In this document: positions 1 to 31,134 of the stretch, piece by piece | How the letters are laid out: the number at the start of each line of letters is the position of its first letter | Numbering within the stretch: position 1 is the stretch's first letter | From: Bacteroidota bacterium | Lineage (GTDB): Bacteria; Bacteroidota; Ignavibacteria; Kapaibacteriales; UBA961 | Length of the DNA stretch: 45,939 bases | Reading direction: 5' to 3' | Assembly (NCBI GenBank): GCA_020852855.1 | Contig: JADZAA010000059.1 | Coordinates: 1 to 45,939, forward strand | The notes under the pieces: model-generated | The model's input: only the letters and a program-made list of their open reading frames with translations | What the model was told of the DNA's origin: nothing | Database searches by the model: none | Made by a program: the position numbers and the translations under genes

Positions 1-244
1 CACGGTCGCCGCCGCCGAAGCGCGGTTTTCTGTCGTCAAATCCGCGTCCGCCTTCACGGTCGCCGCCGCCGAAGCGCGGTTTTCTGTCGTCAAATCTGCG
101 TCCGCCTTCACGGTCGCCGCCGCCGAAGCGCGGTTTTCTGTCGTCAAATCCGCGTCCGCCTTCACGGTCGCCGCCGCCGAAGCGCGGTTTTCTGTCGTCA
201 AATCTGCGTCCGCCTTCACGGTCGCCGCCGCCTAAACGCGGTTT
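1..244. repeat. 54-bp in-frame tandem repeat (four full units) coding the RG-rich tail
   Basis: Full units start at 4, 58, 112 and 166; a diverged partial unit follows at 220. The four units are identical except at one base. That site alternates tccgcg / tctgcg along the array, giving Gly or Arg in turn, so the true period of the array is 108 bp. The array runs to the left edge and may be longer. 54 is a multiple of 3, so copy-number change would keep the frame. Confidence 0.95.
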
Positions 245-1327
245 GTATCCCCCGGGGCGCGGCTTATTGTCGAATCGCGGCTTAGTAGGCCCGTGTTTTG
301 GCTTTCCGTCTTCATCATCGGTGTCATCTTCTTCGTCAAAATCTATTTCGATTTCATCAACATCATCGGTGTCATCTTCTTCGTCAAAATCTATTTCGAC
401 TTCATCAACATCATCGGCGTCATCTTCTTCGTCAAAATCTATTTCGATTTCGTTATCATCAATATTTGGCGAATGTTGCGGGCGCATTTCCGGAAATTCG
501 TCATTATCGGGACTGAACTCTTGCATTTCGTCGTTATCTTCGACTTCACTATCTTCAACTTCAGCTATGCGTATATGTTTTGCGGCTGCTTTTCGGCGGA
601 TACCGCCGCGAACTTCGGAAGGTGCGCCTTCGATACAAATAACCGCTTCGCCCTTGAATTTTTCCGCCATTAATTTTTCGACTATTTCGGCTACCTGGCC
701 GTAATGATGCGACTCGAAAGGCATTGTTAAATTACAGCCCACATAAGCGCGGCGCGTTGGTATTATCTCTGCAATGGCAACGAGTAAAGGCACTACCCGA
801 TAAGGTGTTTCCAAGAAAACAACAGTCCGTATTTCGGCGGCAAGTTGTCGTAATTGCTCTCGACGTTCTTCCGGCTTGCGGCTCATAAATCCGGCATATA
901 CGAATGAATCGGTAGAGAGTCCGCTTCGCGTAAGAGCGGTCATAATGCTGGTTACGCCCGGTACTACAACTACGGGTGCGTTAGCTGCAAATGCCCGTTT
1001 AAGCAATCCTTGTCCCGGGTCGGCAAAAATAGGGGTGCCGCAATCGCTGATGAGAGCAACATTTTCTCCGCCGAGAAGTTTCGCTATAACCTCATCATTT
1101 GCATAATCTTCCGTATGCTCGTTCAGTTCGATGATAGGTGCGCTTACATTGAGCCTTTTCAGTACTTTAGCCCCAACTTTAATTTCCTCGCAAGCAACTA
1201 CGTCGCAATGCTTTAGTATTCGCGTAGCTCGTAATGTGATATCGTCGTCGTTTCCGATGGGCGTTGATACGATATAGAGTGTTCCTATAGCTGCCGTCGA
1301 AGACGTTGCTTTTTGTTCGTCAGACAT
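1..1327 (-). CDS. rsmI: RsmI-like 16S rRNA 2'-O-methyltransferase with acidic and RG-rich repeat tail (3' end beyond window)
   Basis: Belongs to the tetrapyrrole-methylase superfamily. RsmI methylates the 2'-O of C1402 in 16S rRNA using S-adenosylmethionine. Residues 1-240 form the core: STPIGN near residue 21, SDCGTP near 95, PGVTS near 124, SGL near 134 and a GEAVICIEGA strand near 230. The usual EDTR motif reads EEIK here, so the core is divergent. It is followed by an acidic linker (about 240-341) with three 16-residue repeats (EEDDTDDVDEIEIDFD). A basic Gly/Arg-rich tail starts at about 343, with at least four 18-residue repeats of the type GDREGGRGFDDRKPRFGG. The frame is open to the left edge (442 codons seen), so the stop lies outside. 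Typical RsmI has about 280 residues and no such tail. The ATG follows an AAGG 8 bases upstream. The family call is firm; exact substrate identity is inferred. Confidence 0.85.
   Translation of the reverse strand, partial: MSDEQKATSSTAAIGTLYIVSTPIGNDDDITLRATRILKHCDVVACEEIKVGAKVLKRLNVSAPIIELNEHTEDYANDEVIAKLLGGENVALISDCGTPIFADPGQGLLKRAFAANAPVVVVPGVTSIMTALTRSGLSTDSFVYAGFMSRKPEERREQLRQLAAEIRTVVFLETPYRVVPLLVAIAEIIPTRRAYVGCNLTMPFESHHYGQVAEIVEKLMAEKFKGEAVICIEGAPSEVRGGIRRKAAAKHIRIAEVEDSEVEDNDEMQEFSPDNDEFPEMRPQHSPNIDDNEIEIDFDEEDDADDVDEVEIDFDEEDDTDDVDEIEIDFDEEDDTDDEDGKPKHGPTKPRFDNKPRPGGYKPRLGGGDREGGRRFDDRKPRFGGGDREGGRGFDDRKPRFGGGDREGGRRFDDRKPRFGGGDREGGRGFDDRKPRFGGGDR
313..456. repeat. 48-bp in-frame tandem repeat (three units) coding the acidic linker
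   Basis: Units begin at 313, 361 and 409, each starting catcatcgg. Each codes 16 residues rich in Asp and Glu on the minus strand. There are few differences between units (T/A and I/V changes in the protein). They lie inside the rsmI-like gene, directly upstream of the Gly/Arg-rich repeats in reading order. Confidence 0.9.
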
Positions 1328-1416: not shown

Positions 1417-3120
1417 TTACTCAAGAATGATAATGCGGGCATCTGATGACGTGCTTGTCAATAGTCGTACGATAATGAAGCCGGTCGGCAGATCGTATCG
1501 ATGGAATTTTACGTAAGAATATCCGTTCTGCCGTATAATATTCGGGGTAACATCGGCAAGTAAACGGCCGTTCGGTGCATAAAAAATAATTCTGGCAGAG
1601 GCAGCAAGATATTCTGGCACGCTGAAAGCAACGGTTGCCTCGTCGAGTACCGGATGTGGGGTGCAATCTGTTATTTGCGTGATTTGTTCCTGTGCGAGAG
1701 ACGATTCTTCTATGGCCGAAGGTTGAGAGGCCGTAGCACTTACGGCAATCGGGATAGATGGGAGGCCGTCGGCAAAGCGTATTTTCAATGTTCCGTCAAT
1801 ATTACCCGTTTTTGGACGTTTTGCGCGTATTTTTATGCGTGTCCAATTTGCGACGGTTAATTCTTTTGGGGTAATATCGGTTACTGTAAAATTCGAGTCC
1901 GTATCGGGTGATACGCTTGCCGAAACAATCATTGCGTCTTCCGTTCCCGTATTTGCCACATATACGGATAATTCCCGCTCTTGGTCATCTGAGCCGTAGA
2001 ATGAAAAAATTACGCGCTCATCGCTTGCCGCGAGGCGCGGATAGGGCGGAAAGTCGCGTTGGGCGGATAATTTGTTTATACGTTCGATAAATTCAGGATG
2101 ATCAATATATGGATTACGTCGTTTTTGCAATGCATATATTGCTTCGTTCCGGGCGCGTTCGGCCGCATCTACCGTATCCAGATTGTTCCATTCGCGCAGA
2201 ACGTCCTCTTGTACCGTCAAAAATCCTTCTTTATCGTATGTTCCTTGGCGATTACCGTAGCGCGTGCAATAGTAGAACATACTTCGTGCCACATTACCTT
2301 TGTGAGTGTTGCGAGGTTCGAAAATAGAGTCGTTTTTTCCTATTGCAACAAATCCGGCCTTCGAGCCGCCGTCCTGCCAATAAATACTTTGCGCAACAAT
2401 TCCGAAAGGATTATTTGAACGCGCCGAATTAGCCGGTGCCCAAGTAGGATACAAATGAAATAAATCGGTATTTGCCGGACCGGTATCAGAGCCTTTGCTC
2501 TGGGGCCATGTATGCTCTGTGTTGAATTTTGATGCGTCGGGAATGCCTTTTGTAGATACGATTCTGCCGGTGTATACACACTCGACGGTACCGTTGCGAT
2601 TGTCTATTGACCCCCACATATATTCGCGTGCTTGCTTATATGTATAGGAAGTTTGCGGCTGTAGATATAAAGACAATGCCGTTGCCAAAGCTGAACCTAC
2701 AAGATTTTGAGTGAAATTATAGGTCGAGTCCGGGTAAATAAATTCGGCTGTAAGAGTAATAGGCAAAGAATATTCGCCTACGGAGCAACGCAGTTGTGCA
2801 AATGCTACGGCAGTATATATTAAATTATGCAGGCTGAATGCGGTGAAAATAAAATCACGATTTGATTTTGGCGGAATCGCTCCCGACGATGCATTTTCTA
2901 CTGTAAAAATCTCCGTATTCTGGGCGATTTTTACACCGCGTAAATAAATCGTATCACTCGAAGAATTGACTAACCTTGCCGTAAGTGTATGATGGGTTTT
3001 TACAAGGACTTTTCCCGCGTCGAGAATGCCGGCGGTAAACTGTGCGGTACATTCGCCTGAAAGCACGACGGCCGGCGACAAAAATATTGCGACAAGTGCC
3101 GCAATCAATCGAATTTTCAT
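1417..3120 (-). CDS. Secreted endonuclease I family nuclease with C-terminal sorting-like domain
   Basis: A 567-residue exported nuclease. Residues 1-21 are a signal peptide. Residues 22-130 look like a choice-of-anchor-type beta domain. The endonuclease I (EndA/NucM) domain covers about 150-345, with the family hallmarks EHTWPQS (202-208), LFHLYPT (220-226) and NNPFG (236-240). A second beta domain follows (about 355-470). Residues 488-567 resemble a T9SS type A sorting domain, ending in a short beta strand (ARIIILE). Family members are Mg-dependent, non-specific DNA/RNA nucleases. A role in nucleic-acid scavenging outside the cell or at its surface is inferred. There is no Shine-Dalgarno before the ATG (the upstream bases are CTCCTCC). 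A Bacteroidetes-type promoter candidate lies 35 bases upstream. Confidence 0.88.
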   Translation of the reverse strand: MKIRLIAALVAIFLSPAVVLSGECTAQFTAGILDAGKVLVKTHHTLTARLVNSSSDTIYLRGVKIAQNTEIFTVENASSGAIPPKSNRDFIFTAFSLHNLIYTAVAFAQLRCSVGEYSLPITLTAEFIYPDSTYNFTQNLVGSALATALSLYLQPQTSYTYKQAREYMWGSIDNRNGTVECVYTGRIVSTKGIPDASKFNTEHTWPQSKGSDTGPANTDLFHLYPTWAPANSARSNNPFGIVAQSIYWQDGGSKAGFVAIGKNDSIFEPRNTHKGNVARSMFYYCTRYGNRQGTYDKEGFLTVQEDVLREWNNLDTVDAAERARNEAIYALQKRRNPYIDHPEFIERINKLSAQRDFPPYPRLAASDERVIFSFYGSDDQERELSVYVANTGTEDAMIVSASVSPDTDSNFTVTDITPKELTVANWTRIKIRAKRPKTGNIDGTLKIRFADGLPSIPIAVSATASQPSAIEESSLAQEQITQITDCTPHPVLDEATVAFSVPEYLAASARIIFYAPNGRLLADVTPNIIRQNGYSYVKFHRYDLPTGFIIVRLLTSTSSDARIIILE

Positions 3121-30404: not shown

Positions 30405-31134
30405 CGCGCATCATATTTTTATTTGCACTGCATTCCCCGGACACGTAAGCCGAAGACTCGTCAAAAAATCGCAGCGGTAATTCTGAATATCTGCTAATCC
30501 CAATTCGCGGCGGTACACCTATTTGGGGCGTATCAGCTGGAAGTTTTGCAATGAATAATTTCGACATACAAAGCGATATACCGTCGCTTTTGTCGACATA
30601 CAAAGCGATATACCGTCGCTTTTGTCGGTTATACCGAAAGCACGCGCCAATTTACCCGGCCCGCGGCACGATTCTGTTTCTTTACAATTTATGCCGCGCC
30701 GCGCACTCACTACTTCTATATCTGTAATAGGCTCGGCCGAACGCAATAAAACGGTGCTTTCTACACCTTGCGTTTCAGTAACTGCATTTATACAATAATG
30801 CACACCATAATAAATTCTGATACACATAAAGAGCTCCGCCGTCGGCAAACATAGACCGGTTTCGTTTATTTCTCCCTTTGGCAGAAGGTGAAGCTGCGTC
30901 GCCTACTGAAAGATAAGCCTCTGTTTCCATTATTTGTCCGGCGATTATGCAACCGTCCGACCGCAAATATATCAAAAGGGCACCAATCAATTCCCGCGCT
31001 ACGGTTTCAGGATTTCTTTGGTAGAATTTTTGCGGCAAAATATATTTTTTCAATCTGTATTGCAATAACGGCATATTATTTTGACCGTTAAAAATCTCTG
31101 TTATGCCTGAAAATTCCAATAAATCGTTTTTCAC
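30397..31134 (-). pseudogene. 3-methyladenine DNA glycosylase (AAG/MPG family), interrupted by two indels
   Basis: Three segments in two frames rebuild one AAG-type glycosylase. Segment 1 (31134 to about 30817) holds the catalytic IMETEAY and RNKRNRSMF ... ALYVY. Segment 2 (about 30817 to 30593) holds IYYGVHYCINAVT, VLLRSAEPI and GPGKLARAFGI, but in another frame. Segment 3 (about 30593 to 30397) holds the family C-terminus PPRIGI and AYVSGE, back in frame 1. The first shift looks like one extra base near 30817 (between VYQ and IYYG). The second is a perfect 32-bp tandem duplication. The two sum to 33 bp, so the frame is restored at the end. AAG enzymes excise alkylated purines. Either this is a pseudogene or the assembly is wrong here. 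Confidence 0.88.
30561..30624. repeat. Perfect 32-bp tandem duplication inside the glycosylase gene
   Basis: Copies lie at 30561-30592 and 30593-30624, identical and adjacent. The unit codes the DKSDGISLCMS segment twice. 32 is not a multiple of 3, so it shifts the frame. Removing one copy joins GITDKSDGISLCMS directly to KLFIAKLPAD, as expected for the family. Confidence 0.97.

Follow-up and report, generated by a model that had tools for sequence, protein, structure and literature searches.

The window analysed here, a stretch of 45,939 nucleotides, is the entire contig C59 of a draft Kapaibacteriales genome (2.8 Mb in 138 contigs, 99.2% complete). At its left end lies an open frame in which an RsmI-type methyltransferase runs on into long charged repeats. 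The locus raises the question of whether this protein is RsmI itself with an unusual extension or a different enzyme, and of what such a tail might do.

Gene architecture and the missing 3' end

Read on the (-) strand from position 1327 to position 2, the frame contains zero stops over 442 codons and reaches the first bases of the contig (Table 1). A domain search of the tailed protein matched TP_methylase at residues 16-214 (8.5e-31), and the RsmI model TIGR00096 matched residues 17-242 with 182.9 bits, above the cut-off of 167.9. Tandem Repeats Finder identified both arrays that follow the core, the acidic one of 48-nt units (96% matches, score 264) and the R/G/D one of 54-nt units (97% matches, score 460). 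Both periods are divisible by three and both arrays are in frame with the core; because in-frame tails of similar composition are also found in dozens of genomes, this architecture is far beyond chance. Frame, family and repeat searches therefore agree with the original prediction that a methyltransferase core passes through acidic repeats into 18-residue repeats in one open frame, and within the window no stop or frameshift was found between core and repeats. Elsewhere in the window, at 30561-30627, the same program found a perfect 32-bp direct repeat in 2.1 copies, TCGACATACAAAGCGATATACCGTCGCTTTTG.

Table 1. Features of the tailed gene and its surroundings; positions are those of the window (contig C59) unless contig C78 is named.
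Feature	Position	Strand	Basis
'RsmI2', RsmI-type methyltransferase paralogue; ATG at 1327, 442 codons, 3' end past contig end	2..1327	(-)	open frame and family matches
Methyltransferase core, class III TP_methylase fold, residues 16-242	602..1282	(-)	family and fold matches, retained AdoMet-contact positions
Acidic linker, 102 residues, net charge -42	308..613	(-)	charge count; predicted disordered
Three 16-residue acidic repeats, EIEIDFDEEDDADDVD type, 48-nt unit x 2.9	313..451	(-)	Tandem Repeats Finder
Tail start, R/G/D/K/F, 102 residues, net +13	2..307	(-)	open frame; remainder on C78
54-nt / 18-residue repeat, RKPRFGGGDREGGRRFDD, 4.5 copies	1..244	(-)	Tandem Repeats Finder
Upstream neighbour, predicted secreted protein, endonuclease-I-like by eye	1417..3120	(-)	synteny anchor
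Remaining tail, 103 residues, net +15, plus stop	C78 9598-9909	(-)	repeat match; contig order from synteny

The repeats recur at one other site in the genome, the extreme right end of contig C78, where they stand in matching orientation and give way to GGGKFGGDKKFGDRKPFGK repeats and then a stop. Three genes come after rsmI2 on C78: one DUF1232-like, a small one resembling a membrane protein, and purC (all named by eye). Four relatives of the same family (L247, L248, L251 and L096) have the order purC - small gene - DUF1232-like - rsmI2 on contigs without a break, and L247 also carries an endonuclease-like gene, the counterpart of the upstream neighbour of rsmI2 in the window. This shared gene order indicates that C78 and C59 are adjacent and were split within the repeat array. 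Judged from these matches, the missing 3' end of the tailed gene almost certainly lies on C78, and the full protein would comprise at least about 550 residues. The frame can accordingly be followed to its stop, after 103 more residues on C78, but within the window the gene, lying on the (-) strand, is cut by the contig end. The gene order on the unbroken contigs of the four relatives also excludes an assembly artefact fusing two genes. That the repeats form a separate gene is likewise excluded, by the single frame and by orthologues with the same arrangement and same-frame tails, which bears out their earlier assignment to the gene of the core. Beyond synteny, the neighbourhoods of rsmI2 gave no functional hint, and the commonest neighbour cluster resembles antisense ORFs of the core.

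The tail contains R (17%), G (14%), D (11%), K (9.5%) and F (5%), and is a mixed-charge R/K/G/D/F repeat, not a classical RGG box. Its earlier description as RG-rich captured the R/G/D-rich repeats, but only 3 RG and 1 RGG are present in the observed part. The observed basic part carries a net charge of +28, set against -42 for the acidic linker.

In an AlphaFold2 model built on a 59-row alignment, core residues 11-240 have pLDDT values mostly of 86-98. After residue 245 the values fall mostly to about 40-60, and there is no secondary structure past residue 257, consistent with a disordered tail. Judged from composition and the AlphaFold model together, a low-complexity, disordered R/G-rich region is thus present in the tailed protein. 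In the PDB the core is matched best by RsmI, both bound to the 30S subunit (9pzg) and free (5hw4). Over the whole core the rmsd against solved structures is 13 A, which counts against the explanation favoured below, whereas each half taken singly superposes well, to about 2 A (3fq6, 3ffy); the large value presumably arises from a different placement of the two halves in the model. The putative methyltransferase 1wyz of Bacteroides thetaiotaomicron has the same superfamily fold, but at about 20% identity its match is much weaker than that of RsmI, and its 242 residues leave no room for a long tail.

Relationship to canonical RsmI

The genome encodes a second RsmI-family protein on contig C56, which is tail-less, 235 residues long and 32% identical to the tailed protein. 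It outscores the tailed paralogue on the RsmI model (210 versus 182.9 bits) and keeps motifs of the EDTR and RE-L-[ST]-K type. Across 180 distinct cores, numbered according to E. coli RsmI, canonical copies almost always have EDTR and R-E-L-[ST]-K, and EE-x-K and C-N-L-T-[ML] characterize the tailed group; R196-E197...K200 becomes C-N...M in Kapaibacteriales paralogues, and both motifs are changed in nearly all of the paralogue clade. The window protein itself has EEIK and CNLTM in place of EDTR and RE[LI][ST]K.

Positions that contact AdoMet were drawn from the E. coli RsmI structure (PMC5053481). D100, I21 and L198, together with the neighbouring G94 and P96, are retained in 99-100% of Kapaibacteriales paralogues, and in the window protein the I21, G94, T95, P96, D100 and L198 positions are conserved. 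The window protein has Ser at A124, a site where the A124L substitution abolished AdoMet binding in RsmI; Ser is found there in 94% of Kapaibacteriales paralogues, which counts against the explanation favoured below, and also in 10% of canonical copies.

In a maximum-likelihood tree from a quick search, the paralogue clade separates from canonical RsmI with an SH-aLRT of 100, and all sampled Kapaibacteriales paralogues fall in one subclade (SH-aLRT 99). Among the matches listed, the wider clade comprises Ignavibacteria and a few sequences of Anaerolineae, SAR324, Cloacimonadota and Myxococcota; 'Candidatus Kapaibacterium sp. Ch6' holds a 56%-identical match to the tailed protein. On these sequence comparisons the tailed enzyme is distinct from the genome's RsmI and belongs to a separate, strongly supported paralogue clade. 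The original identification of the enzyme as RsmI has therefore to be given up, in view of the canonical copy on C56, the separate clade and the altered near-invariant motifs. Since the protein is not RsmI itself, the proposal that the tail holds it on ribosomal RNA also loses its premise, a C1402 substrate.

Both the paralogue and a second match were found in 74 of 99 order-level genomes, and order-level genomes with a single type carry the canonical copy. The paralogue is absent from 20 of 23 genomes of the Kapaibacteriales family f2. In this family a TadA-like deaminase domain is fused in-frame ahead of canonical RsmI (L038, 1944-3140, (+), and also L039-L053), the domains of L038 being PF14437/PF00383 and PF00590 with HAE and PCAMC motifs; most f2 genomes are without the tailed paralogue. 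From its domains the fusion is possibly a bifunctional tRNA deaminase-rRNA methyltransferase, and a literature search found no paper on such a protein. The paralogues L101, L105, L107 and L012 likewise lie above the TIGR00096 cut-off, so that annotation would name both paralogues RsmI. Searches of the open-access literature turned up no account of a tailed RsmI or of the paralogue.

RsmI of other phyla often carries the HTH domain RsmI_C (PF23016) after the core. This domain is absent from the tailed paralogue, and the tail thus occupies its position; it is also absent from the Kapabacterial canonical copy, so its loss is not decisive. A role for the paralogue as a replacement of TlyA was dropped: TlyA (TIGR00478) had no match above cut-off in 29 of 29 Kapaibacteriales genomes (G000-G075 sample), whether the paralogue was present or not, and its absence is therefore uncorrelated with the paralogue. 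SpoU methylase counts were similar throughout.

The tail across the Kapaibacteriales

Tails of at least 40 residues are carried by 54 of 64 complete Kapaibacteriales paralogues, and tails of at least 100 residues by 42 of them; a net positive charge was found in 58 of the 62 tails with at least 15 residues. Outside the order, the tail-less paralogues of Ignavibacteria, Anaerolineae, SAR324 and Cloacimonadota share the clade and its motifs (EE.[KR]; SDxGTPxFxDPG) but stop 0-22 residues past the core without repeats, and none of 27 has a tail of 40 residues or more. Within the order, canonical copies stop at most 10 residues past the core (0/19 with a tail of at least 40); this sample is mostly from family f2, whose loci were fetched deliberately, and open-frame lengths elsewhere, mostly about 225-290, are in agreement. 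The tailed variant is thus real and lineage-wide in Kapaibacteriales, not a one-off. About one-sixth of the Kapaibacteriales orthologues are short-tailed (5-33 residues), which shows that a long tail is not essential and counts against the favoured explanation.

The repeat units vary by genus (DDRRGGERR, KKREDGGY, DRPPRKEYG, EKKFGDRKF, DRPDQRRN), with alike composition; at least 3 RG are present in 34 of 60 long tails. Read in the frame of the gene, the tails are 45% charged and 13% hydrophobic and contain no stops; the two other frames give 41% and 24% hydrophobic residues and 138 and 1476 stops. Lysine plus arginine averages 28% over genomes of 31-59% GC. As GC increases, arginine makes up more of R+K (rho 0.49), AT-rich genomes using K in its place, and K+R as a whole declines somewhat (rho -0.51). 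This frame-specific composition looks like what would be expected of selection on bulk charge and disorder, as an informal comparison of related sequences and not a formal test.

An acidic 40-residue stretch (net charge of -10 or lower) is present in 10 of the 60 long tails and precedes the most basic part in all ten, so the architecture first noticed in the window has counterparts among its orthologues. In L083 (G021), acidic repeats of the GEEDNSDADD type lie N-terminal to the core and the C-terminal tail is basic, placing the two blocks at opposite ends. R/G tails as a genome-wide habit were considered and rejected, as only one other clear R/G-rich terminal stretch was found in the 0.67 Mb (24%) sampled. 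That stretch is the small glycine/arginine-rich C-terminus of a short RRM-type protein, encoded on the (-) strand of L235 (G000:C29) about 3.7-4.1 kb from the locus start.

A candidate role for the tail

The explanation that we consider the probable one, with appreciable reservation, is that the tailed protein is an RsmI-family AdoMet-dependent methyltransferase paralogue, distinct from canonical RsmI, which bears a cationic disordered RNA tether at the position of the RsmI_C HTH. The core would bind AdoMet and methylate RNA, probably at the ribose 2'-O of rRNA; a site other than C1402 is probable, because the motifs typical of RsmI differ. Being flexible and cationic, the tail may touch RNA phosphates at many points, each contact weak, and so concentrate the enzyme locally on its RNA or on a pre-ribosome. 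Where present, the acidic block could compete intramolecularly with RNA for the basic tail, weakening non-specific binding. In this form the earlier idea of an RNA-holding tail balanced by an acidic block is plausible. R/G-rich tails on RNA enzymes are an already known kind of thing. Low-complexity regions of bacterial RNA-binding and RNA-processing proteins are enriched in arginine (PMC6821194). In Bacteroides Rho, RNA-dependent condensation is driven by basic motifs of the intrinsically disordered region and moderated by an acidic one (PMC13269538), a direct precedent for an acidic block tempering a basic tail. The small number of true RGG motifs and the mixed charge of the tail count against this explanation.

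Compared with E. coli RsmI, the 16S rRNA C1402 2'-O-methyltransferase (5hw4, 9pzg, TIGR00096), the tailed paralogue has a common fold, the AdoMet-contact residues and about 35% core identity. It differs in its separate clade, the changes EDTR to EExK and RELTK to CNLTM, the lack of the RsmI_C HTH, the long disordered tail and the canonical RsmI encoded alongside. Fibrillarin is an analogue in manner of working, being a methyltransferase to which one lineage has added a disordered low-complexity domain rich in R, G and F, but it is of an unrelated methyltransferase class and snoRNA-guided, and its GAR domain is N-terminal with true RGG repeats. The GAR domain is present in eukaryotes and absent in archaea (PMC9957100). 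Nucleolin and the Bacteroides Rho disordered region likewise pair acidic stretches with basic or RG stretches, and tempering of condensation has been shown for Rho; both are unrelated to the tailed paralogue, for which an acidic/basic balance is proposed.

Different accounts of the tail and of the target have to be weighed. The tail may be mainly a phase-separation element, its mixed-charge R/G/F repeats coacervating with RNA or with each other and placing the enzyme in a nucleolus-like assembly body. The R/G/D/K/F composition and multivalent repeats are in keeping with this, as are the condensation of Bacteroides Rho with RNA through charged motifs and the link between phase separation and the RG-rich, F-spaced GAR domain of fibrillarin (PMC9957100). 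However, many orthologue tails are short (20-70 residues) and lysine-rich, a better fit for simple tethering, and we judge condensation improbable as the main role, although it is compatible with tethering and does not exclude it. The identity of the units within the gene (97%) and their turnover between genera mean that slippage or unequal exchange certainly generates the repeat units. That the tail is nothing else, a near-neutral product tolerated at a free C-terminus, is nonetheless very improbable: one frame keeps its composition, its low hydrophobicity and its positive charge from genus to genus, R and K being exchanged according to GC, the canonical paralogue in the order and the sister paralogues lack the tail, and few other long R/G stretches occur in the sampled part of the genome.

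As regards the enzyme, passing the TIGR00096 equivalog cut-off would agree with the tailed protein being the functional RsmI, acting at C1402, and the canonical copy having another job or sharing this one. The score and intact motifs of the C56 copy argue against this, as does the canonical copy being the one that single-type genomes carry, and we give the idea scant credence. A target other than rRNA is a less remote prospect, though still an unlikely one: the substrate could be a tRNA, an mRNA or a small molecule, and the tail would attach to the RNA concerned or to some other polyanion. The altered RsmI-typical motifs and the membership of tetrapyrrole methylases in the fold family point that way, but among solved structures RsmI is nearest and the tetrapyrrole enzymes lie much farther off.

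Returning to the tethered-paralogue explanation, its most far-reaching form is speculative and, in our estimation, doubtful: a second methyltransferase, hidden by annotation as 'RsmI', would methylate a different RNA site, and Kapaibacteriales would have independently evolved a fibrillarin/nucleolin-like acidic-plus-GAR architecture that organizes the enzyme in an RNA condensate during ribosome assembly. The analysis brings to light a family of paralogues which present annotation models do not separate from RsmI, and predicts that Kapabacteria and several other phyla have an as yet unassigned RNA methylation. The tailed enzyme may offer a bacterial convergent counterpart to fibrillarin, and its short-tailed, long-tailed and acidic-plus-basic orthologues would form a natural series bearing on the role of disordered R/G tails.
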